From assembly GCA_021108415.1 (NCBI GenBank), contig JAIOQX010000005.1:1-64000 (forward strand): a stretch of 64,000 nucleotides of DNA, in the 5' to 3' direction. A program made the translations under genes and the position numbers. The notes under the pieces were generated by a model that was not told the DNA's origin, searched no databases, and saw nothing but the letters and a program-made list of their open reading frames with translations. This stretch comes from Acholeplasmataceae bacterium (GTDB lineage Bacteria > Bacillota_I > Bacilli_A > Acholeplasmatales > Acholeplasmataceae). Shown piece by piece: positions 9,482-24,981 of this stretch; the first letter of the stretch is position 1; each line of letters starts with the position of its first letter.

Positions 9482-9501
9482 GAAATCAAGAGGTGATCTA
9501 T

Positions 9502-10692
9502 ATGTTTATATTAAAAAATGCATATTTAGTGCATGAAAACAAAACAGTAAATTTATTAGTGAATTTAAATAAGGTCAGAATACTAAATGAAAGTCTAGAT
9601 TCATTTGAACAAACAGATATTATAGATTTAGAAGGTAAAATGGTGTTAAGAGGTTTCTCAGATACTCACATGCATTTAGATAAAGCACTCATTGGAGATA
9701 AAGTCATCAATCAAAGTGGGACATTAGAAGAAGCAATCAAAATTATGACCTCATATAAACCAACCATGAGTGATGATGATATCTATGAGCGAATGAAAAA
9801 AGTTATAGATATGGCGTATGATAACGGAACAAGATATTTGAGAACCAACATTGATATAGATGAGGGTATTAAACTTAGAAGCTTAAAAATCATCCATAAA
9901 TTACGAGATGCATACAAACATAAGATGGTTATAGAAAGCATTGCATTTCCACAAGACAGTTTTTTAGGCAACGAAGAAAACTTTAAGTACTTAGAACAAG
10001 CTTTAAAACAAGGTGCAGATGTACTAGGTGGAATTCCAGCATATGATCTTGATCCTAGACAACATCTAAAGAGATTGTTTGAACTAGCAAAAAAATATGA
10101 TGTAGATTTAGATGTTCATATTGATGAAACAGATAATCCTAATACTTTAACGATTAAAGATTTAATTTCATTAACTAAAACATTTGATTATCAAGGTAGA
10201 GTTACAGCAGCACATTGTTGCTCATTAGCAAGTAATGATAAAGAAGTAGTTGATCAAATTTTAAAAGATGCAAAGTCCGCAGAGCTAAATATTGTTCCAC
10301 TACCAAGTACAAATCTTTACTTACAAGGTAGGGGAGATACAAAAAACATTAGAAGAGGAATCGCACCTATAAAATCAATTGTCTATGATCATAAAATTAA
10401 TATCTCAATAGGTTCTGATAATATTAGAGACCCATTTAATTGTTTTGGGAATGCTAAACCTTTAGAATCGGCTCTTATTTCAGCGCATGGTGCACAAATG
10501 GGGGCGACTGAAGACTTTAATGTATTATTTGATGCAATTAGTAAAAATGGTATGAAAATCATGCATAAAGATTACCATATTGAAAACGCAAAATTCTTCA
10601 TTGTCATAGATTCAACTTCACCAAGAGATGCGATCATTGGGGTTGCTCCGATATATGGATATATGGAAGATTATAAATTTATACTTAAGTAA
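9502..10692 (+). CDS. Amidohydrolase of the cytosine deaminase / AtzC group
   Basis: A 396-residue metal-dependent hydrolase of the amidohydrolase superfamily. Metal and catalytic positions match the cytosine deaminase pattern: His56-x-His58 (DTHMHLDKA), His206 (DVHIDETD), His238 (TAAHC) and Asp306 (GSDNIRDPF). This group includes cytosine and isocytosine deaminases and the s-triazine enzyme AtzC, which yields cyanuric acid. Beside a ring-opening amidohydrolase it probably supplies the ring substrate by deaminating an aminopyrimidine or aminotriazine; the exact substrate cannot be read from sequence. ATG 9502 is chosen over GTG 9493 because AGAGGTG (9489-9495) is then correctly spaced. It is transcribed alone and ends at a bidirectional terminator shared with the convergent pucR-type gene. 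Confidence 0.8.
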   Translation: MFILKNAYLVHENKTVNLLVNLNKVRILNESLDSFEQTDIIDLEGKMVLRGFSDTHMHLDKALIGDKVINQSGTLEEAIKIMTSYKPTMSDDDIYERMKKVIDMAYDNGTRYLRTNIDIDEGIKLRSLKIIHKLRDAYKHKMVIESIAFPQDSFLGNEENFKYLEQALKQGADVLGGIPAYDLDPRQHLKRLFELAKKYDVDLDVHIDETDNPNTLTIKDLISLTKTFDYQGRVTAAHCCSLASNDKEVVDQILKDAKSAELNIVPLPSTNLYLQGRGDTKNIRRGIAPIKSIVYDHKINISIGSDNIRDPFNCFGNAKPLESALISAHGAQMGATEDFNVLFDAISKNGMKIMHKDYHIENAKFFIVIDSTSPRDAIIGVAPIYGYMEDYKFILK

Positions 10693-10699
10693 TGAAAAT

Positions 10700-10728
10700 G
10701 GTATTGCTTTTTGCAATACCGTTTTTTT
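10700..10728. terminator. Bidirectional terminator
   Basis: GGTATTGC (10700-10707), a five-T loop, GCAATACC (10713-10720) and a T-run. It separates the convergent amidohydrolase and PucR-type genes. Confidence 0.8.
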
Positions 10729-12283
10729 ACTTATCACTGATATCTTCTAATAGGTTGATTTGAACATATAGAGCTAGATAAAAATCAAAGAAGTGACTTT
10801 TTATATTATTGATTCTATATCCTAATTTTTCGATTACAGATAATCTGTATTTTAATGAATTCGTGTGAATGTATAGTGCATCAGCTGTCTTCTTAATAGA
10901 AAATCTACATTGAATATATTTATAGATGGTGTTCATTAAAGGTAGGTTTGTTTTCTTTTCATAATCAAGTAATCTACCTATAATCGAAATAGAAAAATCA
11001 TGAAGTTCTTCATAGTTAAGTGACTTCAATAAACTTATAAGTCTAACGTGATTTTCATTAAAAATAGATAGGTCAATATTTTTTCTGTTTGCGTTGGTCA
11101 CTGTTTTAGAAAGTATTGCAAATACTTTTGGAATTTCATGAGCTTGGTCAATAGGATTAGAGTAGGCAAGCTTAATTTTAGTATTAGGAATATCAATTTC
11201 TAAGCGAGCATAAAGTAATTCTATTGTCTCTAAAATGTTAGATTCATAAGTTGTGTTCACGATAAATAGTATTAAATCATCCATGACAATATATCTAAGC
11301 GTTTTGTGAGGGATTTCCAACAATTCAATAATTAAACTTTGGATGCAGTAAACTGATTGCTGAGGGTTGTGTTCTCCTTTTATGGAAAACAACATCAAAA
11401 ATAATGGAAATTTCACATCCCAGTTATAAAACTGAGAAACTTCCATAAGTTCTTCGTTTGTGTTGTAATTCGAAGTTATATTACTGACAAAGCCCAATAG
11501 AAATTGATTTTGTCTCATAAAAATTTCTCTCTTTTTTTGAAAAACAAATATCGCAAGCATCTTATATATTTCTGCATAATTATATAAAAGATATCTCTTT
11601 TCTTCGGTGGTTAATAGAGCTATACGATAGATAATCTCATTACCATATTCAATGTTCGTTACATATAAGAGTAAATCTTTATCCTTAACAAGTGTATTTG
11701 TTGGATGAGAATACTTCTCATAATAAGATCTGATCACTTCATTTGAACAATGAAGTTTTTTTGATACTGGATTAAAAATTAGAACCTCTAAATCAGCTAT
11801 ATCCTTAGCACTTTCAACTAATGCTTCTGTAGAGGGATTATCACTTATGCTATTTAAGATATTAGTATAAAAAGGGGTTAGGTTGTTTCTGTTATATTCA
11901 CTACCCTGTATTTCGCTTAAAATAGAATTAAAAACAGTAGACAGATTTGCGTCATAATCAATGGTGATGATTGGAAAATTTAGAAGGCTTGCTTTTTCAA
12001 TGATTTCTTTTGGTATGCTTTCAACATATCTATGTATTTTAACGATAATACCAGAACTATTCTTTTTATCTAATATGTCTAAGAGCTTATTAAATAAAGC
12101 AACATCTTCTTTAATTGGATATAAGGTTGTTAGAATAAGTGAGTTTTCGATAACGTATTTTTCAAACTCTGGAGTTTCTAAAACTGAAACACTAGATACA
12201 AGTCGGTCTAGGTTAGTCTTACCAGTTAAAACTTCATAAGACTCAATGACGTTAATTTTTAAAAGTTGACTTAATTTAATCAT
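10727..12283 (-). CDS. PucR-type transcriptional regulator
   Basis: A 518-residue cytoplasmic regulator. The N-terminal ~125 residues match the PucR sensor domain (LSQLLKINVIESYEVLTG, then VIENSLILTTLYPIKED and SGIIVKI...IPKEIIEKA). The C-terminal ~60 residues hold the helix-turn-helix typical of PucR/CdaR proteins (YIQCRFSIKKTADALYIHTNSLKYRLSVIEKLG). PucR controls purine/ureide use in Bacillus subtilis. Here the gene lies between the amidohydrolase and the ring-opening gene and is divergent from the main catabolic operon, so it is the likely local activator. An inverted repeat just upstream (12320-12344) may serve autoregulation. Confidence 0.9.
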   Translation of the reverse strand: MIKLSQLLKINVIESYEVLTGKTNLDRLVSSVSVLETPEFEKYVIENSLILTTLYPIKEDVALFNKLLDILDKKNSSGIIVKIHRYVESIPKEIIEKASLLNFPIITIDYDANLSTVFNSILSEIQGSEYNRNNLTPFYTNILNSISDNPSTEALVESAKDIADLEVLIFNPVSKKLHCSNEVIRSYYEKYSHPTNTLVKDKDLLLYVTNIEYGNEIIYRIALLTTEEKRYLLYNYAEIYKMLAIFVFQKKREIFMRQNQFLLGFVSNITSNYNTNEELMEVSQFYNWDVKFPLFLMLFSIKGEHNPQQSVYCIQSLIIELLEIPHKTLRYIVMDDLILFIVNTTYESNILETIELLYARLEIDIPNTKIKLAYSNPIDQAHEIPKVFAILSKTVTNANRKNIDLSIFNENHVRLISLLKSLNYEELHDFSISIIGRLLDYEKKTNLPLMNTIYKYIQCRFSIKKTADALYIHTNSLKYRLSVIEKLGYRINNIKSHFFDFYLALYVQINLLEDISDK

Positions 12284-12410: not shown

Positions 12411-12468
12411 TATACTTAAAGCGAAAACAAAGAGTATTAGAAAATATAGAAAGGATTTGAATTGGATT

Positions 12469-13575
12469 ATGCAAAAAATTAATGTATTTAAAATTCCAAT
12501 GTCTGCACCAGATGATTTAACAGAATTTAAAAAACTTGTTGATGAAAAACAAATTATCGCGAATGATATTATTGCAGTATTGGGAAAAACTGAAGGTAAT
12601 GGTTGTGTTAATGATTTTACAAGGGCACTATCTACAACGGTGTTAAAATCGTATTTAGCTAAAGAGTTAAACTTAGAGGAAAATGATGTGCTACATAAAG
12701 TAGCTTTCGTGATGTCAGGTGGAACTGAAGGTGTCATGGCACCACATGCAACTGTATTTACTAAATCAGATGTTGCTACTAAAAGAAGAGAGGGCAAATA
12801 TTTAGTTGCATCATCAGGATACACTAGAGATTTTCTTCCAGAAGAAATTGGAACTGTAGTGATGGTTCAAGAGGTTGCAAGAGTAGTTAAAGAATTGATG
12901 AAAGATGCTGGACTAGATAGTACAGATGATGTTCATTTTGTTCAAATAAAATGTCCTCTACTTACATCTGATCGAATTCAAGACGCATATGATAGAGGAT
13001 TTGATGTAGTTGTAACTGACACATATAAATCTATGGGCTATTCAAGAGGTGCTTCAGCACTAGGTGTTGCAGTTGCACTTGGAGAAGTAGAGTCAGAAAA
13101 AGTGACAAATGAAGTTATTTGTCATGATTGGTCATTTTATTCGAGTGTTGCATCAACTTCAGCTGGTATTGAGTTAATGAATTGCGAAATTATATTATTA
13201 GGTAACTCTAATAATTCAGCATCAGATCTTTCAGTTGGACATAGTGTCATGAAAGATGCAATTGATTTAGAAGCAATTATCGAAGCTTTAGATAGCGCTG
13301 GAATGAAAGTTGATAAACTACCTACTAAAGAGCAAGCAAAAGATATAGTTAATGTATTAGCTAAAGCTGAAGCAAGTACGAAAGGTAAAGTTAGAGGTAG
13401 AAGAAATACAATGCTAACAGATTCTGACATAAATCATACAAGACATGCTAGAGCAGTTGTTAATGGAGTCATTGCCGCTGTTGTCGGAGATCCTATGGTT
13501 TATGTATCTGGTGGTGGAGAGCATCAAGGTCCTGATGGTGGCGGACCAATTGCAGTTATTATTAATAAGAAATAA
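12469..13575 (+). CDS. Ring-opening amidohydrolase (cyanuric acid hydrolase / barbiturase family)
   Basis: A 368-residue member of the AtzD/TrzD/barbiturase family, which hydrolytically opens cyanuric acid (to carboxybiuret, then biuret) or barbiturate (to ureidomalonate). The three-fold repeated architecture with Ser-Lys pairs is visible: Lys40 in LGKTEGNG with Ser83 in MSGGTEG; Lys161 in VQIKCPLLT with a Ser near 229-231; a third-domain Lys (around 299) with Ser347 in [16 protein letters not shown]. Length matches AtzD (about 360). ATG 12469 is preferred to TTG 12457, which would sit directly on the AAGGA at 12451-12455. It is the first gene of a ten-kilobase operon. The choice between cyanurate and barbiturate cannot be made by eye. 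Confidence 0.88.
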
Positions 13576-13616
13576 ATAAACAAAAAAAATAAAAAAATAG
13601 AAGGGTAGAAAAACTT

Positions 13617-14918
13617 ATGAATTTAATTTTAATGCTTATCCCGTTGTTCGTAATTGTTTTCTTCTTAGTGAAGAAAAAACACATGCTTGTTGCAGGTATA
13701 TTTGGAGGTGTTGCAGCTATCGTGATTTCTTGGATCTTAGTTGCTACAGGTGAATTAGAAGCTGGTTTGAAGTTTGGTGATATTCAAAACTTGATCGTAA
13801 ATGTTGGTATCAAAGATATGCTTTCTAAATATTTAGTACCTGTTATCTATGCAGCTGGTGCTGTAATGATTGCTCGTTCTGGATCTATTAAAGCTTTAAT
13901 TGAATTATTAAACCGTAAATTAAAAGGTAGACTAGCTTGGCTAGCTGCTGCAATCGTATTAGTTCAAGCATTGGCTACTTATATGGCGGGTCTTGGTGCT
14001 GGGAACACTATGGTAATCGCACCGTTAATGTTTGCAGCTGTAGGATTTATTCCAGAAGTAGTTGCAGGTATGGCTATTGCAACTGCAATTGGATTTACAA
14101 CTTCTCCTGCTTCAACTGAAACTGGCTTAGCGGCAAATGCTGCAGGTATGGAAGTTGGTGCATTTGCTAACATGATGTTACCTGTAACAATTATTGTATT
14201 CTTACTAGGTGCCGCACTTGCTTTTTATGGAGTACATAAGAGACGTAATTTATTGAGAACTAATGATGCATCTCAAAGTGAATTTGCTGGTAAAACAAAT
14301 AAAGATTTAGCATTAATGATTATCCCTACGTTAGTATTCTTATTGTTAGTAATCTTTGGTGGAAAATTAAATGGATTGTTCCCAATACCAGTATTTGTTC
14401 CAATTATTAATTTAATCATTGCTGCTGTATTATGTGTTGTTTTCTGCAAGGAAGATGCAAATAAAGTTAGTGAAAATTTAATTGATGGTTCACGTTTCAT
14501 TTTAACTACATTGTTTGGTGTTGGTATATTCTTAGGATTTATTAACATGATTGCGTTCTTAGGAACATTTGCTGAATTAGCAGGATTGATTGCTAATGCT
14601 CCAGAATGGATTATTGTATTTCTAGCTTGTGTTGTCGCATTTATTATTGCGATTCCTTCAGGTGCATTTGCTGCAGGTGTATTGACATTGATCTTACCTA
14701 CAATGATATTGATTCCTGGATTATCTCCATTAGCATTTGGATTAATCGCTGTATCAGTTGGTTTAGGTACACAAATAAGTCCAGTACAAATTAATATTGC
14801 TGCATTAAGTGAAGGATTTAAAGTTTCTATATTTGAAGTTATTCAAGGAAACTTAAAGTTTGTATTAGTTGCTGCTGGTTTAGTATTTACTACAGCTTTA
14901 ATCGTAGGTATTATATAA
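13617..14918 (+). CDS. Ion-transporter-superfamily permease (GntP/DcuC/CitMHS-like)
   Basis: A 433-residue polytopic membrane protein with about eleven hydrophobic helices. Two internal half-repeats each carry a Ser/Pro-rich re-entrant-type segment (FTTSPASTETGLAANAAG near 160-180 and LGTQISPVQINIAALSEG near 378-395), a plan seen in the ion transporter superfamily that moves organic anions. It lies 41 bp after the ring-opening gene in the same operon. It may import the substrate or export an organic acid product such as malonate; the family does not decide this. Confidence 0.7.
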   Translation: MNLILMLIPLFVIVFFLVKKKHMLVAGIFGGVAAIVISWILVATGELEAGLKFGDIQNLIVNVGIKDMLSKYLVPVIYAAGAVMIARSGSIKALIELLNRKLKGRLAWLAAAIVLVQALATYMAGLGAGNTMVIAPLMFAAVGFIPEVVAGMAIATAIGFTTSPASTETGLAANAAGMEVGAFANMMLPVTIIVFLLGAALAFYGVHKRRNLLRTNDASQSEFAGKTNKDLALMIIPTLVFLLLVIFGGKLNGLFPIPVFVPIINLIIAAVLCVVFCKEDANKVSENLIDGSRFILTTLFGVGIFLGFINMIAFLGTFAELAGLIANAPEWIIVFLACVVAFIIAIPSGAFAAGVLTLILPTMILIPGLSPLAFGLIAVSVGLGTQISPVQINIAALSEGFKVSIFEVIQGNLKFVLVAAGLVFTTALIVGII

Positions 14919-14948
14919 TTATTAGAATTTAATATACTATTAATATAT

Positions 14949-15008
14949 AAGGGATCTTTTATGGTTAATAAGCAATTTTGCTTTTTAGATCATTATAAAA
15001 GATTCCTT
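14949..15008 (+). other. Nested hairpin in operon leader before the NCS2 permease
   Basis: Outer arms AAGGGATCTTTTAT (14949-14962) and ATAAAAGATTCCTT (14995-15008) pair over 14 bp with one wobble, and enclose a smaller hairpin AAGCA / TGCTT followed by five T (around 14970-14986). The inner hairpin looks like a weak terminator and the outer stem could compete with or stabilise it. Possible roles are partial termination or mRNA processing between the IT permease and NCS2 genes. Confidence 0.45.
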
Positions 15009-15030
15009 TGTATTTCGATGAGGTGAGTTT

Positions 15031-16341
15031 ATGGCTAAAACTGAATTAATATACAACATAAATGATAAACCCAAAAATAAAAAAGATTTATTTTTATATA
15101 GTCTACAATGGATTATGATTATGTTTTATCCAGTTGTTTGGGGTTATTCAATTGTTGGGCTTGGTTTAGAACTTACAGGTGAAGAATTAGGTCTTTATAT
15201 GGTTCGAGTAGTCTTTATGATAGGTGTTACTACACTCGTTCAAGTATCTGTAGGACATCAGTTATCAATGGTCTCAGGACCAAATATTATTCCATCACTA
15301 GCGATTGTTGCAGCCTTTGCAGTTGGGGGTAAAGACTATGCATTGCAATCTTTTAATGCATATATTATCGCAGGCTTTGTTGTTGCTATATTAGGCTTTT
15401 TAGGTGTGTTTAGTAAAATTGGTAAAGTATGGACACCTTTGGTATCTGGTGCTATGATTATGATGGTTGGTCTATCAACAAGTGCAGTTGGGATTAGCTT
15501 GATTAGTAATCAAGGATTAGGATTAGCGTTTTATGTTGGGATTTTACTAGCTCTTATTTGTGGATACTTATCAATTAAGGGTAAGGGCTTACTAGCGAGT
15601 ATACCTGTTTTGATAACAATTGTTTTGGGATACTTGATATTTATTGTGACTAATCAACTTGATTGGGAACTAGTTAGAAGTATGCCGGTTGTAACGCTTC
15701 CAAAGTTATTTCCTTATGGTGTTAAATTCCCACCGATTGATCTCATCATTATTATGATTATTGTTAATATATTTTCTGCAGTTAATCTATATGGAAATAT
15801 ACAAGGTTACTCACAAATTGTTGGACAAAAGCAAACACAAAAAGATGAAAAGAGGTACTTTTCAATCTTTGGTATGGTTGAAGGTGTGATTGCATCAATC
15901 TTTGGTGTACCAAGTCATGTAGCCTATGGTGAGAATTTAGGATTTGTATTGCTAACTAGAATTGCATCTAGAATTTTTATCATCATCGCAAGTATTGCAT
16001 TTATTGTATTTAGTTTCTTTGGAAATATTGGAGGACTAATGGCAGCGATGCCAAGTGCAGTTGCTGGAGCAGTCTTACTGGGTGTGGCATCAACTTTAAT
16101 TGGCATAGGTGCTAAAAACTGGCATCAAAGTCAAACATTTGAAACTAGAGAAATCTTTATCGTTGGTTTTTCTATATTTCTAGCATTTGGTTTAAGTGTA
16201 TTGCCAGAAAACTTTTATCAAGAAATACCAAGAATTGTGGGAACATTGTTTAAAAATCCTGTAATTACTGTTATTATAATTGCTGTTATATTAGAACAGA
16301 TTATATTTAAAGAAAAGAAAAAGGAGTCGAATAATGTCTAA
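15031..16341 (+). CDS. NCS2-type nucleobase permease
   Basis: A 436-residue membrane protein with 12-14 predicted helices, in the NCS2 (xanthine/uracil permease) family. Typical features are the QWIMIMFYPVVWGYSIV start, VGHQLSMVSGPN in the substrate loop, NIQGYSQIVGQ, and YGENLGFVLLTRIASR, the last corresponding to the conserved Asn-containing segment of helix 10. These carriers import nucleobases by proton or sodium symport. In this operon the substrate is probably the ring compound opened by the upstream hydrolase. The stop overlaps the start of the next gene by 8 bp. Confidence 0.82.
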   Translation: MAKTELIYNINDKPKNKKDLFLYSLQWIMIMFYPVVWGYSIVGLGLELTGEELGLYMVRVVFMIGVTTLVQVSVGHQLSMVSGPNIIPSLAIVAAFAVGGKDYALQSFNAYIIAGFVVAILGFLGVFSKIGKVWTPLVSGAMIMMVGLSTSAVGISLISNQGLGLAFYVGILLALICGYLSIKGKGLLASIPVLITIVLGYLIFIVTNQLDWELVRSMPVVTLPKLFPYGVKFPPIDLIIIMIIVNIFSAVNLYGNIQGYSQIVGQKQTQKDEKRYFSIFGMVEGVIASIFGVPSHVAYGENLGFVLLTRIASRIFIIIASIAFIVFSFFGNIGGLMAAMPSAVAGAVLLGVASTLIGIGAKNWHQSQTFETREIFIVGFSIFLAFGLSVLPENFYQEIPRIVGTLFKNPVITVIIIAVILEQIIFKEKKKESNNV

Positions 16342-17197
16342 AATTAGAAGTTATGAATCGTTTTATTCAAAAAATAGAGACTTAATGTTAGAAAGAGTTA
16401 ATGAAGCTTATGAAGTATTTAAAAAAACAAAAACATATGAATATCCTAAATGGTTATATGGAAATCCTATTGGAAAAATTATAAAATTAGAAGTAGAAGA
16501 TAATCCGAACTTTGGTGACACAGCATATATAGAAATGGATTCTGCAAGAACTGCATTTTTATCAATTGATATGCAAACAGATTTTTGTGGAAAAAATGGA
16601 TATGTTGATGTGATGGGATACGACCTTTCACTTACTGCACAAGCTTTGGATCCAATCAAAAATGCACTTGATGTAGTTAGAAAAACTGATATGAAAGTAA
16701 TTCATACAAGAGAAGGGCATGATCCTGATTTATCTGATGCGCCATTTAATAAAATATTAAGATCCAAAATTATAGGCCAAGGAGTCGGTATTGGTGAAAT
16801 TCCTAAAAATGGATTAGGTCGACTTTTGGTTAGAGGACAAGAAAACTGGGATATTCAAAAAGATGTATATCCAATTGCTGGCGAGCATGTGGTTGATAAA
16901 GCAGGAAAAGGTGCTTTTGGATCTTCAACATTACATATGTTATTAAAAAACTTAGGGGTTACACATCTTGTAATCTCTGGTATTACAACAGATGTATGCG
17001 TCCATACAATTATGAGAGAAGCTAATGATTATGGATATTGGTGCATTTTAATGAAAGATGGAACGGGTGCAACCGATTATGATAATCATTTGGCTGCGAT
17101 TAAATCGATTAAGATGCAAGGTGGAGTTTTTGGAAATGTTACTGATTCTAAGAAATTGATAGATGCTGTTAAAACAGCATTTGCAAATAAATCATAA
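16334..17197 (+). CDS. Isochorismatase-family amidohydrolase (biuret hydrolase-like), long form
   Basis: A 287-residue cysteine hydrolase of the isochorismatase/nicotinamidase fold. The catalytic triad is readable: Asp79 (LSIDMQTDFC), Lys189 (VVDKAGKGAF) and Cys222 (GITTDVCVHTIMREAND). The KAGKGAF and TTDVCVHTxMREAND strings are typical of biuret, triuret and ureidoacrylate amidohydrolases. A ~65-residue N-terminal extension distinguishes it from its paralogue at 23.5 kb. ATG 16334 follows AAAGGAG (16319-16325) and overlaps the permease gene. Likely role: removal of ammonia from a linear ureide produced by ring opening. Confidence 0.85.
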   Translation: MSKIRSYESFYSKNRDLMLERVNEAYEVFKKTKTYEYPKWLYGNPIGKIIKLEVEDNPNFGDTAYIEMDSARTAFLSIDMQTDFCGKNGYVDVMGYDLSLTAQALDPIKNALDVVRKTDMKVIHTREGHDPDLSDAPFNKILRSKIIGQGVGIGEIPKNGLGRLLVRGQENWDIQKDVYPIAGEHVVDKAGKGAFGSSTLHMLLKNLGVTHLVISGITTDVCVHTIMREANDYGYWCILMKDGTGATDYDNHLAAIKSIKMQGGVFGNVTDSKKLIDAVKTAFANKS

Positions 17198-17221
17198 ACA
17201 AACACAAAGGAGCTGGGGGAT

Positions 17222-18028
17222 ATGGATACAAACTTAAAGATAATTGCAATCGATCAAGAGATTTATGAAATGATTAAAGATTATAAAGCATTTATATATG
17301 CAATCCATAATAACTCACTTCATTTATCTGTGTCCAATACTTTAGTTACACTCGGAGATAAAATTCCAGAAGGTAAGCATCATATTGTTACTGATAAAAA
17401 CATTATATTTAGTGAATTAAATATTAGAAAATATCAAAAAGCATATATAGAAGAAAATTTCTTATATGTAGGTGATTTAAAACTGGACATAGATAATCTG
17501 TCGATTAAGGATTATCAAAGTTATGACTTGACTTATAAAATGAGAGATGATATAGATTTAATTATCATTCAATTACTAGATATAATTGATAAGCATATTG
17601 AAAGTCAGATGTTTGTGAAATATAATCCTAGCATCATGAAAATAGTTTTAAATCGAGTAAATCAATTTTTAGATAAACCTAATTTAATTCATGCAAAACT
17701 TATTTTGGGGCTTGGACAAGGATTAACTCCATATGGTGATGATATTCTTGTTGGATATATCATGGGATGTAATACAATTGGACAATCAATTGATTGGATA
17801 GAAGAATTAGTAGAGCTAGCAAATGAAAAAACAACGAAGCTCAGTGCACAAAACATTAAAGATACTCATAAGCGCATATATTCCAATATTTATGCGGATA
17901 TGATAGAAGAATTGTTTAAGAAAAATAAAACGGAACATGCAATGAAAATGATGAACATTGGAGATACCAGTGGTGTGGGTATGCTTCTAGGATTTCTGCA
18001 TGGCATAAAAAAAGAGCGAGGGATATAA
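17222..18028 (+). CDS. allH: DUF2877 protein, oxamate carbamoyltransferase subunit AllH-like
   Basis: A 268-residue protein of the DUF2877 family (E. coli YlbF, 271 aa). The diagnostic segment is LGLGQGLTPYGDDILVGYIMG at about 160-180. In E. coli, allF, allG and allH (formerly fdrA, ylbE and ylbF) together encode oxamic transcarbamylase, which makes carbamoyl phosphate and oxamate from oxalurate. Here the same three genes are adjacent and coupled (the stop TAA shares a base with the next ATG). The partner genes point to a different carbamoyl donor than oxalurate. A strong RBS (AAAGGAG) precedes ATG 17222. Confidence 0.82.
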   Translation: MDTNLKIIAIDQEIYEMIKDYKAFIYAIHNNSLHLSVSNTLVTLGDKIPEGKHHIVTDKNIIFSELNIRKYQKAYIEENFLYVGDLKLDIDNLSIKDYQSYDLTYKMRDDIDLIIIQLLDIIDKHIESQMFVKYNPSIMKIVLNRVNQFLDKPNLIHAKLILGLGQGLTPYGDDILVGYIMGCNTIGQSIDWIEELVELANEKTTKLSAQNIKDTHKRIYSNIYADMIEELFKKNKTEHAMKMMNIGDTSGVGMLLGFLHGIKKERGI

Positions 18029-19560
18029 TGAAAGATTTTAAAGTATTAAAAAACTCATATTATGATTCAGTAACTCTAATGAGTACAACTGTAGCAATAA
18101 AAAAAGCATTAAATCTTAAAGATTTAGTTATGTTTATGGGTACAGATATGAATAAAGATATGATGGATTCAGTTGGTCTATACGATCAAGTGTTCGATGA
18201 AGCGACTCCTAATGATTTATTATTAGGCGCAGAGATGGAAGAAAAAAATGAAGATTGGGCAGAGCAAGTTATTGAACAATTAAGTAATAAGAATAAAAAA
18301 CAGGATAATACAGATACTGTTTATAAAACAATATCACAAGCAAAAGAAGCTAAGGATAGCAACATCGCTATTATTAGTGTTCCTGGTATATATGCTGCAA
18401 ATGAGGCATATAAAGCTTTGGAAAATAACATGCATGTCATGTTGTTTAGTGATAACGTTAGTGTTGAAGATGAAATCGCATTAAAAGATTTAGCCATCAA
18501 AAAAGATCTTTTAGTTATGGGTCCAGATTGTGGAACAGCTATTATTAATGGTAAAGGATTATGTTTTGCAAACATAGTTTCTAAAGGCAATATTGGATTA
18601 GTTGCAGCAAGTGGAACCGGATTACAGGAAGTGACTGTTATTATTGACAGATTTGGTGGAGGAATCACACAAGCAATAGGTGTTGGTGGACGTGATTTAT
18701 CAGAAGCAGTAGGTGGAAAGATGATGCTTAAGAGCATTGATGCACTAAATTCTGATGATCAAACTGAAGTTATTGTATTAATCAGTAAACCTCCTCATAA
18801 GACCGTTTTAGATAAGATCATTAAAAAATTAGAAACTGTAAATAAAAAAGTAGTTGTCTGTTTATTAGATGCTATAGTTGACCAAAATATCGACAATGTA
18901 TATTTTGTATCTACATTAACTGAAGCTGGTCAAAAAGCACTAGAACTTATTGGTAAGAAGACACCTAATTTAACAGAATTAGATCATGAATTAAAAGCAA
19001 ATATAGAAAACGAAAAAGATTTAAAAGCTAAATCTCAAACTAAAGTAAAAGGTTTATTCTGTGGAGGTACATTAACTGCTGAAGCATTAAGTGTTTTAAG
19101 AGATGACTTAAAAGATATAACAAGTAATGTTGCTAAAAAAGTAGATGAAAAAATGAAAGATCCAATGAAGAGTAATGGGCATAACTTAGTAGATCTGGGA
19201 GATGATATTTTTACACAAGGTAAACCTCATCCAATGATTGAACCTACTATTAGATTGGATCGCATTTTATTAGAAGCGAAAAACCCTGAAACTTCAGTTA
19301 TCCTTTTGGATTTCGAATTAGGACTTGGATCACATGATGATCCAGTCGGTGTTACTATTGATACAATGATAGAAGCTAGACAACTCGCTAAAAATGAGGG
19401 TAGACACATCTCTTTTGTAGCATATGTTTGCGGAACTGATAAAGATTCTCAAGGATTAGAAAAATCAGAAAAGCAATTAAGAGATCAAGGTGTATTTGTA
19501 GCGAAAACCAATGCACATGCAGCATTAATTGCTGCAGCAATTGTAGGAGGTGCAGTATGA
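18028..19560 (+). CDS. allF: FdrA-like protein, oxamate carbamoyltransferase subunit AllF-like
   Basis: A 510-residue protein related to FdrA and to succinyl-CoA synthetase alpha subunits. A Rossmann-type region near 100-165 (AIISVPGIYAANEAYKAL, MGPDCGTAIINGKGLCFAN) is followed by VAASGTGLQEVTVIIDRFGGGITQAIGVGGRDLSEAVGG, the FdrA signature. The C-terminal half contains VILLDFELGLGSHDDPVG. It is one subunit of the three-part transcarbamylase. It overlaps allH by 1 bp and allG by 4 bp (ATGA), so equal expression of subunits is expected. No separate CoA function is implied by context. Confidence 0.88.
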   Translation: MKDFKVLKNSYYDSVTLMSTTVAIKKALNLKDLVMFMGTDMNKDMMDSVGLYDQVFDEATPNDLLLGAEMEEKNEDWAEQVIEQLSNKNKKQDNTDTVYKTISQAKEAKDSNIAIISVPGIYAANEAYKALENNMHVMLFSDNVSVEDEIALKDLAIKKDLLVMGPDCGTAIINGKGLCFANIVSKGNIGLVAASGTGLQEVTVIIDRFGGGITQAIGVGGRDLSEAVGGKMMLKSIDALNSDDQTEVIVLISKPPHKTVLDKIIKKLETVNKKVVVCLLDAIVDQNIDNVYFVSTLTEAGQKALELIGKKTPNLTELDHELKANIENEKDLKAKSQTKVKGLFCGGTLTAEALSVLRDDLKDITSNVAKKVDEKMKDPMKSNGHNLVDLGDDIFTQGKPHPMIEPTIRLDRILLEAKNPETSVILLDFELGLGSHDDPVGVTIDTMIEARQLAKNEGRHISFVAYVCGTDKDSQGLEKSEKQLRDQGVFVAKTNAHAALIAAAIVGGAV

Positions 19561-20969
19561 GCGTGAATAAATTATTTAGTGAAGATCTAAAAATAGTTAA
19601 TGTTGGATCTCCTAGTTTTAAAAATGATTATGAATCACAAAATCTTGATTATGTACATCTTGAATGGAGACCACCTGCAAGTGGTGACATTAAATTATTA
19701 TCATTGCTAAACAAGGTTAGACCAAATATGGATGTAATTAATAAAGCAAATGATGAAGTTGTCTCAAAAATAAAGGCAGCAGAAGCAAAACTTGTCTCAG
19801 TGAAAAAAGCTATTGATGTCATTCCTGGAATGACGTCACATATGATTCTTCATTCGGGACCTCCAATCGCATTCGAAAAAATGGCTGGACCTATGAAAGG
19901 CGCAATCATTGGTGCAATTATGTATGAAGGGCTAGCTGAAAACCATGAAGATGCCCTAAAATTAGCACTATCTGGAGCAATTACTTTTGATAGTGCACAT
20001 CATCATAATGCAGTAGGACCAATGGCGGGTATTGTCTCTGCTTCAATGGCTGTTCATGTACTTTATAATGAAACACATGGTAACTACAGTTACTGTACTA
20101 TCAATGAAGGCCTTGGAAAAGTACTACGTTATGGTGCAAATAGTAAAGAAGTGCTAACGCGTCTTAAATTTATGGAAGAAGTAGTTATGCCAGTTTTAAA
20201 TCAAGCAGTCGAAATTGCTGGTGGAATTGATATCAAATCATTGATCACTCAAGCACTTCATATGGGTGATGAATGTCACAATAGAAATAAAGCCTCATCA
20301 GCGTTATTTTTAAGAGAAGTTGCTGGATATATTGTTGAAACTAATTTTTCTGATGAAATGAAAAAACAAACACTTAATTTTATAAAAAATAATGAACACT
20401 ATTTCTTGAATTTATCTATGCCTTACTGTAAACTAGCATTAGATAGTGCAAGAGGAACTAAAGACTCTACAGTCGTGGTAGCTATGAGTAGAAATGGTGT
20501 AGATTTTGGAATTCAATTAGCACATAGCGATAAATGGTTTACTGCTCCTGCTAATTATGTTAAGGGTTTAATGTTTCCTGGATTTACAGAAGAAGATGCA
20601 GCTCCAGATATTGGAGATAGTGCAATCACCGAAACCTGTGGTATAGGTGGATTTGCAATGGGTGGAGCACCAGCAATTGTTCAATTTGTCGGTGGTGTTG
20701 TCAAACAAGCATTTGATTATTCAAGAGAAATGCATCAAATTACTGCAGGAGCACATCAAGTATTTACATTGCCACCACTAGATTTTATGCCAACAGCTTT
20801 AGGCATTGACATCTTAAAGGTTGTAGAAAGCAATATCTTACCAATTATTAATACAGGGATGGCACATAAAGAAGCTGGCGTTGGCCAAGTTGGTGCAGGA
20901 TTAGTTAGTCCACCAATGGCTTGTTTTGAAAAAGCACTAGAAGACTACGTAAAGGGAGAAAGAAAATGA
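19557..20969 (+). CDS. allG: DUF1116 protein, oxamate carbamoyltransferase subunit AllG-like
   Basis: A 470-residue DUF1116 family protein (E. coli YlbE). Family features include YVHLEWRPPASGD near the N-terminus, HSGPPIAFEKMAGPMKGA, TFDSAHHHNAVGPMAGI with clustered His residues, and GMAHKEAGVGQVGAGLVSPP at the C-terminus. Together with the FdrA-like and DUF2877 partners it should form the enzyme that transfers or phosphorolyses a carbamoyl group. It starts in an ATGA overlap with allF and ends in an ATGA overlap with carbamate kinase, tying carbamoyl phosphate formation to its use. Confidence 0.88.
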   Translation: MSVNKLFSEDLKIVNVGSPSFKNDYESQNLDYVHLEWRPPASGDIKLLSLLNKVRPNMDVINKANDEVVSKIKAAEAKLVSVKKAIDVIPGMTSHMILHSGPPIAFEKMAGPMKGAIIGAIMYEGLAENHEDALKLALSGAITFDSAHHHNAVGPMAGIVSASMAVHVLYNETHGNYSYCTINEGLGKVLRYGANSKEVLTRLKFMEEVVMPVLNQAVEIAGGIDIKSLITQALHMGDECHNRNKASSALFLREVAGYIVETNFSDEMKKQTLNFIKNNEHYFLNLSMPYCKLALDSARGTKDSTVVVAMSRNGVDFGIQLAHSDKWFTAPANYVKGLMFPGFTEEDAAPDIGDSAITETCGIGGFAMGGAPAIVQFVGGVVKQAFDYSREMHQITAGAHQVFTLPPLDFMPTALGIDILKVVESNILPIINTGMAHKEAGVGQVGAGLVSPPMACFEKALEDYVKGERK

Positions 20970-21895
20970 AAATATTAGTCGCATTAGGTGGTAATGCTCT
21001 TGGAGATAATCCAAGTGAGCAAAAAGAATTAGTAAAACATGCTGCACAAAGTATCGTTGATTTAGTTGCAGATGGGCATAGTGTAGTAGTCGTTCATGGA
21101 AATGGACCACAAGTAGGCATGATCCAAAGTTCATTTGAAAATGCACATGAGGTAAAAAATACGATTCCTTTAATGCCGCTTCCAGAATGTGGAGCAATGA
21201 GTATAGGATATATCGGATATCATTTACAAAATGCGATTGGAAATTCACTTCTAGCTAGAAATATTGATAAAAAGGTTGCTACAATTGTGACTCAAACAGT
21301 TGTGGATAAAGATGATCCTGCATTTATAAATCCTACAAAACCTATCGGTAGATTTTATTCAAAAGATGAATCTGTACAAATGGTAAAAGAATTAGGGATA
21401 ACAATGGTAGAAGATTCAGGTAGAGGATATCGTCAAGTTGTCGCAAGTCCAAAACCGGTAGATATCGTTGAAAAAGATGTAATAAGTACACTAATTGATT
21501 CTGGATATGTTGTCATCGCAGCTGGCGGGGGAGGTATTCCTGTCATTAAAACAGATAAGTTAACTGGAGTGAGTGCAGTCATAGATAAAGACTTTAGTAG
21601 TGCAAAATTAGCAGAACTTATTAAAGCTGATGTTTTTGTTATACTTACGGGAGTCAGTAAAGTTTGCATAAACTTTAACAAACCAGATCAAAAAGAATTC
21701 TCAAATATGAGTATTAAAGAAGCAAATTATTATATTAAAACTGGTGAATTCGGAAAAGGTAGTATGGAACCTAAAGTGCAAGCTGCAGTTTCATTTGTTG
21801 AACATAATCCAAATGGAAAAGCAATAATAGCTTCACTTGAAGAAGCAGCTCTAGCTATTAAGGGACAAACAGGAACTAGTATTTCTAAAGACTAA
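20966..21895 (+). CDS. allK: Carbamate kinase, catabolic
   Basis: A 309-residue amino acid kinase-fold enzyme that converts carbamoyl phosphate and ADP to ATP and carbamate (then NH3 and CO2). Motifs are VALGGNALGD at the start, VVVHGNGPQVGMIQSSFE, PLPECGAMSIGYIGYHLQNAI, and AAGGGGIPVIK in the nucleotide region. It overlaps allG by 4 bp and is the last gene before a strong terminator, so the operon ends with the energy-conserving step. No arginine deiminase genes are nearby, so carbamoyl phosphate must come from the AllFGH-like enzyme. An arcC-like enzyme is the alternative name. Confidence 0.95.
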   Translation: MKILVALGGNALGDNPSEQKELVKHAAQSIVDLVADGHSVVVVHGNGPQVGMIQSSFENAHEVKNTIPLMPLPECGAMSIGYIGYHLQNAIGNSLLARNIDKKVATIVTQTVVDKDDPAFINPTKPIGRFYSKDESVQMVKELGITMVEDSGRGYRQVVASPKPVDIVEKDVISTLIDSGYVVIAAGGGGIPVIKTDKLTGVSAVIDKDFSSAKLAELIKADVFVILTGVSKVCINFNKPDQKEFSNMSIKEANYYIKTGEFGKGSMEPKVQAAVSFVEHNPNGKAIIASLEEAALAIKGQTGTSISKD

Positions 21896-21904
21896 ATCAT
21901 AAAT

Positions 21905-21940
21905 AGCGCATGACATAACAATTGTTTTTGTGCGCTTTTT
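21905..21940 (+). terminator. Rho-independent terminator closing the main catabolic operon
   Basis: AGCGCA (21905-21910) pairs with TGCGCT (21931-21936) around an inner AACAATTGTT palindrome, followed by T residues. Confidence 0.75.
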
Positions 21941-21964
21941 AAGATTTGTAGAATAGCTAAGTTT

Positions 21965-21992
21965 AATTCTTATTTTTTAAAAAATAAGAATT
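21965..21992. repeat. 28-bp perfect palindrome upstream of the second permease
   Basis: AATTCTTATTTTTT followed by its exact complement AAAAAATAAGAATT, centred at 21978/21979, between the operon terminator and the RBS of the next gene. It could be an operator or an RNA hairpin. No T-run follows, so it is not a normal terminator in the forward direction. Confidence 0.55.
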
Positions 21993-22009
21993 TAATATGG
22001 AGGTATATA

Positions 22010-23545
22010 ATGAAAATAAAATATTTTGAAAAAAGCGACTGGAATGGTTTTTTTGGATTATTTACAAATAATTTAACAAACGTTCTAGTTATGGCAAGTC
22101 TATTAAGTGCTGTAGTTGGTCTACCAGGAAATATCGTCTATGGTAGGATACTTCCTGCAGTTGGATTATCAATTTTAATGTCATCTGTTTATTACACATT
22201 TATGGCAATTAAATTAGCAAAAAAAGAAAAAAGAAACGATGTAACTGCACTGCCTGCAGGAACCAGTGTTCCACACATGTTCTTGATTGTATTTTTAATT
22301 ATAGGTCCAGTATACTGGGCAACTGGCGATGCATATCTTGCATGGGCTGCTGGTCTTGTTTGGTCTCTACTTGAAGGTGTAATTGAGTTACTTGGTAGCT
22401 TTGTAGGAACAAAAATAAGAAAAGTAGTGCCAAGAGCTGCAATGCTCGGATCACTTGCAGGGGTATCAATTACTTATATCGCATTAAATCCTGCTTTTAG
22501 TATTTTTGCAATTCCATATATTGGTATGGTTGCACTAGCTATTGTCCTATTAGGGTGGATTGGTAAAGTTAAGATGCCATTTAACATTCCTGTTGGTTTA
22601 GTTGCAATCGTCGTTGGTGTTGTAATTGGATGGACAAGTGGATTAATGGATGGTGTTGTATTAGCAGATAGTTTTAGTAATATTACAATGGGTATACCAG
22701 TACCAAGTATTAGCAGATATATTGATGGATTTAAAGAAGCCGTTCCTTTCTTGTTTGCAGCCATTCCATTAGGTATTTATAACTTCTTTGAAACAATTGA
22801 TAATTGTGAGTCAGCAGCTGTTGCTGGTGATCATTATTCAACTAAAGAAGCAATGATCGCTGATGGTGCAACGACAATATTAGGATCACTATTTGGAAAT
22901 CCATTTCCTACAGCAATCTTTATTGGACATCCCGGTTGGAAAGAAGCTGGAGCTAAGATAGGATATTCAGCTGCTGGAGGATTAGCAATATTTGTTTTAA
23001 CTACATTTGGACTATTCTCTGTATTGTTAAATATCATTCCAGTCGTTGCAATTCTTCCAATTCTGCTTTATATTGGTATTGTCATTACAACTCAAGCATT
23101 TACAAGTGTTAAACATAAATATGCACCAGCTGTCGTACTTGCAATTGTCCCTGCACTAGCAGACTGGACAAGAAATGCAGTAGACATAGCTGTAGGTGCT
23201 GCAGGTACATCTGCTGCAGATATTGGATATGGAACTTTAAATAATGCAGGTCTGAACTATGAAGGTATGATGAGTTTAGGAGCTGGAAGTATTATTGTTG
23301 GTATCATTTTAGGATCTTTAGCGGTATATATTATTGACCATAAATTCTTGCATTCAACGATCGTTACTTCATTAGCAGCTGTTCTATCATTCTTTGGAAT
23401 CATTCATGCTGGTACTGTTGCAATTAATGCCAACTTAGGTATGACAATAGGATATGCAGCTATGGCAGTTATATTCTTTGGATATTATATGTACTATAAG
23501 AAAAACGAGGTGATTGTTGATGAGAGAATACCAAGTAGTAGCTAA
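22010..23545 (+). CDS. NCS2-related nucleobase/xanthine-uracil permease
   Basis: A 511-residue membrane protein with about 13 helices. The start WNGFFGLFTNNLTNVLVMASLL, the TALPAGTSVPHMFLIVF loop, GIYNFFETIDNCESAAVAGDHYSTKEAM and NPFPTAIFIGHPGWKE resemble the group of permeases annotated as xanthine/uracil/vitamin C permease relatives. It differs clearly from the NCS2 gene at 15.0 kb, so the island has two separate base-type carriers. ATG 22010 has GGAGG at 21999-22003. It is followed with a 26-bp overlap by the second isochorismatase-type gene. Confidence 0.75.
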   Translation: MKIKYFEKSDWNGFFGLFTNNLTNVLVMASLLSAVVGLPGNIVYGRILPAVGLSILMSSVYYTFMAIKLAKKEKRNDVTALPAGTSVPHMFLIVFLIIGPVYWATGDAYLAWAAGLVWSLLEGVIELLGSFVGTKIRKVVPRAAMLGSLAGVSITYIALNPAFSIFAIPYIGMVALAIVLLGWIGKVKMPFNIPVGLVAIVVGVVIGWTSGLMDGVVLADSFSNITMGIPVPSISRYIDGFKEAVPFLFAAIPLGIYNFFETIDNCESAAVAGDHYSTKEAMIADGATTILGSLFGNPFPTAIFIGHPGWKEAGAKIGYSAAGGLAIFVLTTFGLFSVLLNIIPVVAILPILLYIGIVITTQAFTSVKHKYAPAVVLAIVPALADWTRNAVDIAVGAAGTSAADIGYGTLNNAGLNYEGMMSLGAGSIIVGIILGSLAVYIIDHKFLHSTIVTSLAAVLSFFGIIHAGTVAINANLGMTIGYAAMAVIFFGYYMYYKKNEVIVDERIPSSS

Positions 23546-24182
23546 ACCCTATGAATTTGATTTTGATCTAAAAAAAACTGCACTACTTATTATTGATATG
23601 CAAAGAGACTTTTGTGAAGTAGGTGGCTTTGGCGAAGCATTAGGCAATGATGTTACACCGACTAAATCTATTGTTCCTACAGTCAAAAAAATATTAGATA
23701 GAGCAAGAGCAAAAAACATGTTTATAGTTCATACTAGAGAAGGTCATCGACCTGATATGAGTGATGTACCTAAAGCAAAAAAAAGAAGATTTGATTCTAT
23801 TGGTGAAGAAGGACCTATGGGAAAAATCCTTATTCGGGGTGAATTTGGTCACGATATTGTTGAAGAATTAAAACCGATAAAAGGGGAAGTTATTCTTGAT
23901 AAACCTGGTAAAGGAGCATTTTATCAAACCGATCTTCAATTAATCTTAGAAACTAAAGGTATCGAGAGTTTAATTGTTTGTGGGGTAACAACTCATGTTT
24001 GTGTGCATTCGACCATTAGAGAGGCAAATGATAGGGGATATGAGTGTTTAATGATTGAAGATGGCACTGCAGCTTTTGATCCACAAGATCAAATAGCGGC
24101 TATCCGTATGATTAATCAGCAAGGTGGTATTTTTGGATGGACCACAACTTCTGATGAACTTATCAAAGCATTAAGTGAGTAA
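23520..24182 (+). CDS. Isochorismatase-family amidohydrolase (biuret hydrolase-like), short form
   Basis: A 220-residue cysteine hydrolase. The catalytic residues by motif are Asp26 (LIIDMQRDFC), Lys128 (ILDKPGKGAF) and Cys161 (GVTTHVCVHSTIREANDRGYECL). The KPGKGAFYxTDL and TTHVCVHSTxREANDRG strings are those I associate with biuret amidohydrolase (BiuH). It lacks the N-terminal extension of the paralogue at 16.3 kb. ATG 23520 is chosen over two upstream TTG codons because GAGGTG (23507-23512) then has 7-bp spacing. If the pathway substrate is cyanuric acid, this is the best candidate for biuret to allophanate plus NH3. Triuret, ureidoacrylate or malonamate are alternatives. Confidence 0.85.
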   Translation: MREYQVVAKPYEFDFDLKKTALLIIDMQRDFCEVGGFGEALGNDVTPTKSIVPTVKKILDRARAKNMFIVHTREGHRPDMSDVPKAKKRRFDSIGEEGPMGKILIRGEFGHDIVEELKPIKGEVILDKPGKGAFYQTDLQLILETKGIESLIVCGVTTHVCVHSTIREANDRGYECLMIEDGTAAFDPQDQIAAIRMINQQGGIFGWTTTSDELIKALSE

Positions 24183-24197
24183 GCTAGGAGAGATTTA

Positions 24198-24311
24198 ATG
24201 AATAAATTTTTGGTAGTATGTGAGATAAAAGAGGAATCTAGAAAACTAGACTTTCAAAAAGTTCTTTTTAGTATCACAAATATAAACAAATCAAATCTAG
24301 ATAAAATATAA
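24198..24311 (+). CDS. 37-residue ORF, possible leader peptide
   Basis: A short ORF, MNKFLVVCEIKEESRKLDF and onward to the stop at 24309-24311, with AGGAG (24186-24190) 7 bases before its ATG. It starts 15 bp after the isochorismatase-type gene, and its stop codon sits at the foot of the terminator hairpin at 24311-24336. No family is recognised. It is either a small protein of the catabolic operon or a leader whose translation affects the terminator ahead of upp. The RBS argues for real translation. Confidence 0.45.
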   Translation: MNKFLVVCEIKEESRKLDFQKVLFSITNINKSNLDKI

Positions 24312-24336
24312 AAAAAGGCAAACGTTTGCCTTTTTT
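24311..24336 (+). terminator. Terminator or attenuator before upp
   Basis: A perfect dyad AAAAAAGGCAAAC / GTTTGCCTTTTTT ending in six T residues. Only 21 bp separate it from the upp start codon, too little for a separate promoter, so readthrough or attenuation probably feeds upp. Confidence 0.75.
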
Positions 24337-24357
24337 AACAAGAAAGTAGGAAATTAT

Positions 24358-24981
24358 ATGAGTTTACATGTATTTAAACACCCTTTGATGAAACACAAAA
24401 TGAGTATCATTAGAGATAAAAATTGTAGTACAAAAATGTTTAGAGAAGTCGTTGAGGAATTAAGTGCTTTGATGGTGTATGAGGTTAGTAGAGATTTTGA
24501 GCTCAATGAAATTGAACTTGAAACACCTATTAGTAAAACTATAGGATATGAGCTAGCTAAAGATATTGTAATAGTTCCTATTCTAAGAGCTGGACTTGGA
24601 ATGACTCAAGGCATTCAAAATATGATTCCTAGTGTTAAAATCGCACATGTTGGCATGTATAGAGACCATGATACACTGCAACCTCAAGTTTATTATGCAA
24701 AATACCCAAAAAATATTTCTACAAGTAAGTGTTTTATATTAGATCCCTTACTTGCTACTGGAGGTAGCATTTCAAAGGCTATAGAGTTTTTAACGGAACA
24801 AGGTGTTAAAGATATTACTGTTCTATCGATTATTGGCGTACAAGTTGGTGTTGATAAAATATTAAGCAAGTATCCAAATGTTGATATTTATCTAATTAGT
24901 TTAGATGAAAAATTAAATGATGATGCATATATTGTTCCTGGTTTAGGTGATGCTGGAGATAGATTGTTTGGCACAAAGTAA
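24358..24981 (+). CDS. upp: Uracil phosphoribosyltransferase
   Basis: Salvages uracil with PRPP to UMP in the cytosol. The 207-residue length is typical. Key segments are VPILRAGLGM, HVGMYRDHDTLQPQVYYAKYP, the PRPP loop FILDPLLATGGS (usually DPMLATGGS), and the uracil-binding C-terminus AYIVPGLGDAGDRLFGTK. The RBS is AGTAGGA. It lies just after the ureide island, separated only by a terminator/attenuator, so it may share transcription with the second catabolic unit. Confidence 0.95.
   Translation: MSLHVFKHPLMKHKMSIIRDKNCSTKMFREVVEELSALMVYEVSRDFELNEIELETPISKTIGYELAKDIVIVPILRAGLGMTQGIQNMIPSVKIAHVGMYRDHDTLQPQVYYAKYPKNISTSKCFILDPLLATGGSISKAIEFLTEQGVKDITVLSIIGVQVGVDKILSKYPNVDIYLISLDEKLNDDAYIVPGLGDAGDRLFGTK

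Follow-up and report, generated by a model that had tools for sequence, protein, structure and literature searches.

In E. coli, oxamate carbamoyltransferase (AllFGH) catalyzes the reversible conversion of oxalurate to carbamoyl phosphate plus oxamate, and its genes adjoin those of allantoin breakdown (PMC11326118). Two pathways are described for cyanuric acid, both hydrolytic (PMC6219798). In Pseudomonas sp. ADP (atzDGEHF; PMC6219798), carboxybiuret, the AtzD product, is taken directly by the next enzyme, while Rhizobium leguminosarum 3841 uses a biuret route with AtzD and BiuH-type enzymes (PMC5806882, PMC6219798). The triuret route of Herbaspirillum comprises TrtA, TrtB, BiuH and AtzF; TrtA and AtzD both release carboxybiuret, a compound that loses CO2 to form biuret (half-life ~20 min; PMC7948467). 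The described cyanuric acid and triuret routes being hydrolytic, the energy of the ureide bonds is wasted. Finally, in comammox bacteria and ammonia-oxidizing archaea, allFGHK lies beside biuH and trtA, an arrangement interpreted as oxalurate degradation (PMC12625717). The present analysis concerns the first 64,000 nucleotides (the window) of contig JAIOQX010000005.1 of a small, fermenting member of the Acholeplasmataceae (GCA_021108415.1). The genes of AllH, AllF, AllG and AllK, at positions 17222-21895, belong there to a longer same-strand unit, 12469-24981, that also encodes AtzD and two hydrolases of the biuret/triuret type.

This unit is best read as an operon that degrades cyanuric acid, and probably triuret/biuret, in which an AllFGH-type carbamoyltransferase takes the place of the usual hydrolases; the probability of this reading as a whole, with the reactions set out below, is put at about 0.6. 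Its part concerning the role of the operon, cyanuric acid catabolism, is highly probable. The enzyme kind is known, but a pathway using AllFGH in cyanuric acid breakdown is not described in the literature examined: a search with most subscription journals outside it returned no proposal that AllFGH takes part in the degradation of cyanuric acid, triuret or biuret.

The locus shares parts with each described system. As in E. coli, a three-subunit enzyme and a catabolic carbamate kinase are encoded in one operon, but the order is HFGK instead of FGHK, allantoin pathway genes are lacking and the enzyme belongs to a separate clade. Compared with Pseudomonas sp. ADP, AtzE and AtzF are not found above cut-off, and a phosphate-dependent carbamoyltransferase with its kinase is present instead. 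AtzD and BiuH-type enzymes are common to the window and R. leguminosarum 3841, whereas allophanate hydrolase is replaced by AllFGHK and BiuH is optional in the clade. TrtA-like and BiuH-type hydrolases recall Herbaspirillum, but the window harbors an H160/F187 variant of TrtA, no AtzF, and AllFGHK downstream. The comammox and archaeal neighborhoods likewise have AllFGHK beside TrtA and BiuH; they lack AtzD, and the Nitrospira AllG (locus L111) falls outside the clade of the window.

All four genes of the carbamoyltransferase segment are complete and on the forward strand. AllH (17222-18028; PF11392, 68 bits) and AllG (19557-20969; PF06545, 314 bits) pass the curated cut-offs of their families. 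AllF, of the FdrA type (18028-19560), scores 484 bits with NF004760 (cut-off 433), and the catabolic carbamate kinase AllK (20966-21895) scores 370 bits with TIGR00746 (cut-off 358) and is the sole carbamate kinase match in the genome. AllF and AllG match PDB entries 3dmy (263 bits) and 3clq (431 bits), and are 38% and 45% identical to their E. coli counterparts. The earlier note on this DNA had described an AllH-AllF-AllG-AllK order coupled by overlaps of 1-4 bp; the overlaps are indeed 1, 4 and 4 bp, and the profiles confirm the families, all three subunits and the kinase partner standing in one operon. The AllF/AllG boundary differs from that of E. coli: the small domain that ends AllF in E. 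coli (~508-554) begins AllG in the window, positions 508-554 of the FdrA profile aligning to AllG residues 8-54. The AlphaFold2 model of AllH is of high confidence (predicted local distance difference test, pLDDT, 94.9) and is strand-rich in its N-terminal half and helical in its C-terminal half. A fold search with it against the PDB returned nothing at E<=0.001, so that no active-site inference is drawn; AllH possibly has a fold not yet solved.

The ring opener is AtzD, a cyanuric acid amidohydrolase (12469-13575, forward strand; NF052395, 541 bits against a cut-off of 360). Its start was taken at the ATG at 12469, the ORF itself beginning with a TTG at 12457. The protein scores 513 bits with the Moorella structure 6bum against 304 bits with barbiturase; on these values and the profile score, barbiturase was rejected as the ring opener. 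Residues K40, R52, S83, K161 and S231 of the active site are conserved by position, and the third Ser-Lys dyad is recognized by motif in the alignment from the PDB comparison. There is thus strong reason to predict that AtzD opens cyanuric acid to carboxybiuret. A triazine/pyrimidine ring opener had been noticed upstream earlier; it is present, and its substrate can be narrowed to cyanuric acid specifically.

The association of AtzD with AllFGH is not peculiar to the window. Linkage was counted starting from AtzD, hence without bias with respect to AllG. Among 150 relatives, AtzD occurs in 4 and AllG in 14, and all 4 AtzD genomes carry AllG nearby on the same contig (hypergeometric probability of AtzD falling within the AllG carriers, 5e-5). 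In Tissierellales, 9 of 249 genomes possess AtzD; AllH-AllF-AllG follow downstream in the same operon in seven, and AtzD is contig-terminal in the other two. AllHFG is therefore near AtzD in every evaluable locus, 4/4 in the family of the window and 7/7 in Tissierellales. The same arrangement is met again in other genera and a different class, so it is not due to chance. Loci collected through AllG do not enter this linkage count as independent evidence. The operon has a second form, with a TrtA-like gene and without AtzD, which most Acholeplasmataceae and Tissierella creatinophila carry; the window operon is a hybrid of the two forms.

Phylogeny points in the same direction. In the AllG tree, 30 rows from Bacillota and Acholeplasmataceae form one group, with a support of 97 in the Shimodaira-Hasegawa-like approximate likelihood ratio test (SH-aLRT); 12 are AtzD-linked, 11 are TrtA-like-linked and 7 have neither neighbor. 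The AllF tree recovers this group as well, with 29 rows and an SH-aLRT of 97. In both trees, the E. coli proteins fall outside it, as do copies linked to xanthine-dehydrogenase-type (xdh) and cyclase genes, and the clade holds no xdh/cyclase or allantoin context. AtzD-linked copies thus stand apart, as a family-tree check proposed in the earlier note had it, but jointly with the TrtA-like-linked ones. The two contexts alternate within the clade: counted on starred branches, the AtzD context requires at least 5 changes for AllG and 3 for AllF. The upstream enzyme has been swapped and the same AllFGH kept, which points to a shared intermediate. Outside the clade, TrtA-like-linked copies sit on long branches in a Spirochaetales metagenome-assembled genome (MAG; L077) and in Nitrospira (L111). 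A strict 90/90 rule for group-specific residues is passed by AllF E430 alone: it is present in 23/23 AtzD/TrtA-linked clade copies, including the window, against V/I/M in 52/53 copies linked to xdh/cyclase genes; the E. coli residue is V. E430 may reflect specificity or ancestry, with which it is confounded.

About 50 AllFGH loci of Bacillota, Spirochaetota and Chloroflexota (L050, L056-L115, e.g. L065, L100, L101, L109) display another context: a PF04199 cyclase, three xanthine-dehydrogenase-type subunits and an NCS2 permease, often with a CoA-transferase III and an amidase. These loci could convert uracil to barbiturate and ureidomalonate, AllFGH then giving carbamoyl phosphate and malonamate. 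Ureidomalonate, which the earlier note had listed with allophanate as a candidate substrate, would belong to this xdh/cyclase-linked clade if used anywhere, and is unlikely for that of the window.

The genome of the window (1.78 Mb, 6 contigs) is 99.85% complete, so the absence of a gene carries weight. The best allantoinase match in it reaches 22.7 bits against a cut-off of 358, AllC, AllD and AllE not having been searched genome-wide, and no allantoin genes are seen beside clade members; the earlier remark that no allantoin pathway is visible thus holds for allantoinase throughout the genome. Nothing scores above the allophanate hydrolase cut-off in 13 genomes, nor above those of AtzE and AtzF in the genome of the window, whose sole PF01425 amidase reaches 125 bits against the 511 required of an allophanate hydrolase. 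This amidase was also rejected as GatA (228 of 481 bits needed) and is a general amidase. Urease is absent from the same genome; other genomes gave three short, partial matches (24-27 bits), which lie within other open frames and were taken as other amidohydrolases. Of 10 AtzD-positive genomes outside the family of the window, 7 lack BiuH/TrtA-type hydrolases (E<1e-25), among them Tissierella pigra, T. simiarum and Clostridium ultunense, and those searched among the seven also lack allophanate hydrolase and AtzE above cut-off. Since no BiuH/TrtA-type hydrolase is present, AllFGH probably takes the AtzD product directly in these seven genomes; unless a hydrolase of another kind exists there, that product must pass straight to AllFGH.

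A pathway can be proposed on this basis, whose AllFGH reactions and energy yield are inferred, the gene content, linkage, clade and absences being observed. AtzD would convert cyanuric acid to carboxybiuret, and the TrtA-like hydrolase would probably form the same compound from triuret. AllFGH would split carboxybiuret with inorganic phosphate into carbamoyl phosphate and allophanate, and possibly, in a second round, allophanate into carbamoyl phosphate and carbamate. As expected from its family, AllK would pass the phosphate of carbamoyl phosphate to ADP, making ATP. BiuH would rescue the biuret formed by spontaneous decarboxylation, turning it into allophanate, and in the genome of the window it could also supply allophanate. 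The predicted balance is cyanuric acid to 3 CO2 and 3 NH3, and substrate-level phosphorylation would yield one or two ATP. Like oxalurate, carboxybiuret has both an H2N-CO-NH-CO- head and a carboxylate. That it is the direct substrate of AllFGH is an evenly poised proposition; being formed by AtzD and TrtA alike, it would explain the seven BiuH-less genomes, and it is the best candidate, ahead of allophanate alone. Allophanate is likely a second or alternative substrate. More tentative is the idea that AllFGH acts twice, so that AtzD, AllFGH and AllK alone would suffice to break one cyanuric acid down to 3 CO2 and 3 NH3 and to gain two ATP. Context and phylogeny lend good support to the shift of specificity that the earlier note had deemed probable: AllF and AllG do not group with the oxalurate enzyme of E. 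coli, in a genome devoid of allantoinase, and neither of the two outcomes that the note had set against its idea was observed.

Several points weigh against the carboxybiuret pathway. Annotation and synteny argue by association. The trees are quick searches without bootstrap, in which the E. coli branch is long. The genome of the window keeps BiuH, which also fits an AllFGH acting solely on allophanate, and BiuH-less genomes could have an unrelated biuret hydrolase. The TrtA-like hydrolase carries H where TrtA has E160, making triuret activity unsure, and no report of carboxybiuret phosphorolysis was found in the literature examined.

The alternative that survives best, though unlikely, is that AllFGH acts on allophanate only, replacing allophanate hydrolase: AtzD and spontaneous decarboxylation would yield biuret, BiuH would convert it to allophanate, and AllFGH would release carbamoyl phosphate and carbamate, for one ATP. 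The shape of allophanate is presumably close to that of oxalurate, no allophanate hydrolase scores above cut-off in the genomes searched, and the BiuH-signature enzyme is present in the window and in loci L024 and L165. Against this scheme stand the seven AtzD+AllFGH genomes devoid of BiuH/TrtA-type hydrolases: these being missing, and AtzE too in the genomes searched for it, nothing known there would make allophanate, and allophanate alone leaves them unexplained. Much less probable still is a cleavage of biuret into carbamoyl phosphate and urea, the latter being excreted. Carboxybiuret does turn to biuret by itself, BiuH is missing in the seven genomes, and urea would have to exit a cell lacking urease; biuret, however, has no carboxylate, which the known substrate oxalurate possesses, and the genome of the window already encodes a BiuH-type enzyme that would handle biuret. 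Slightly weaker again is the view that AllFGH is still an oxalurate/oxamate enzyme within a general "ureide island", as read in nitrifiers (PMC12625717), for which family membership, the ordered three subunits with AllK and the identities to E. coli speak, but which is contradicted by the missing allantoinase, the lack of allantoin genes beside any clade member, the separate clade and the almost invariable presence of AtzD or TrtA-like genes alongside.

If the carboxybiuret pathway is true, fermenting bacteria would gain ATP from cyanuric acid, a molecule without oxidizable carbon. It would constitute a third, phosphorolytic route for cyanuric acid/triuret, and would add a new carbamoyl-phosphate fermentation to the known ones, which use arginine, agmatine and allantoin. 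A second substrate class would be gained by an enzyme family whose assignment dates only from 2024, and the automatic label "oxamate carbamoyltransferase" would be corrected in many genomes. A role for AllFGH is also suggested in bacteria of the gut, of manure and of digesters that meet triazine waste or products of uric acid oxidation. The named carrier strains T. pigra, T. simiarum and C. ultunense are cultivable.

Two biuret/triuret-hydrolase-type enzymes and the full extent of the unit add to what the earlier note had described. The first enzyme (16334-17197, forward strand) scores 278 bits with NF050097, below the cut-off of 370, and has an N-terminal extension of ~66 residues. It is closer to BiuH than to TrtA in the PDB (246 against 149 bits) and harbors the catalytic triad and the full BiuH set Y35, Y41, D160, T187 and V205. 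Such second-shell residues, which are F35, N41, E160, Y187 and I205 in TrtA, tell the two enzymes apart (PMC7948467). The second, TrtA-like cysteine hydrolase (23514-24182, forward strand) scores 245 bits with TrtA and 225-226 bits with BiuH from the PDB; it matches TrtA at F35, N41 and I205, E160 being changed to H and Y187 to F. This third residue type, between TrtA and BiuH, is found in ~20 loci and is tied to AllFGHK; its substrate may be triuret or something new. In Nitrospira sp. RSF12 (L111, L174), AllHFGK lies beside full-signature BiuH and TrtA, with V at position 430 of AllF. The published oxalurate reading may need the same revision, despite this V.

The upstream half of the unit is formed, from AtzD onward, by a DcuC-like permease (13617-14918), an NCS2 permease of the xanthine/uracil type (15031-16341; PF00860, 174 bits) and the BiuH-like hydrolase, all on the forward strand. 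The DcuC-like assignment rests on a weak match of 21 bits and on synteny: a Pfam search returned no match, and the gene adjoins every AtzD examined in the clade where the contig continues. Its AlphaFold2 model was set aside (pLDDT 42). Downstream of AllK follow a predicted membrane permease (22010-23545, forward strand), the TrtA-like hydrolase and a uracil phosphoribosyltransferase. This permease, without match in Pfam and NCBIfam searches, is conserved in synteny with TrtA-like hydrolases; the operon thus carries two conserved Pfam-less permease families, 13617-14918 with AtzD and 22010-23545 with the TrtA-like gene.

On the 5' side of AtzD, a divergent PucR-family regulator (10727-12283, reverse strand; PF07905, 87 bits; HTH_30, 42 bits) adjoins nearly all operons of the clade. 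Beyond it lies a cytosine-deaminase/AtzC-like amidohydrolase (9493-10692, forward strand; PRK07572, 232 bits, below the cut-off of 438), which matches cytosine deaminase (146 bits) and AtzC (125 bits) in the PDB. Its Tissierella homologue is located between AtzD and the DcuC-like gene. It is a probable upstream ring deaminase, of the ammelide type or for cytosine, associated with the operon and not part of its core. A riboswitch search returned four tRNAs and nothing else, and promoter-like sites do not exceed shuffled sequence (80 against a shuffle mean of 87).

Close relatives, identified through AllG, are Acholeplasmataceae MAGs. A genome of the same genus, with 7% contamination listed, contains two near-identical copies of the operon ~99 kb apart (L022 and L023; G001:C1:1647500 and 1747000). 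The copy L031 (G059) lacks the TrtA-like gene, the second permease and AllH, AllF coming straight after the first permease; this may be a real loss or an assembly fault. The uracil phosphoribosyltransferase of the operon (24358-24981, forward strand; TIGR01091, 262 bits) is a second upp paralogue, the other being located at G000:C1:558355-558960 of the same genome (G000), and a gene of its type comes after AllHFGK as the last of the operon in nearly all Acholeplasmataceae copies.

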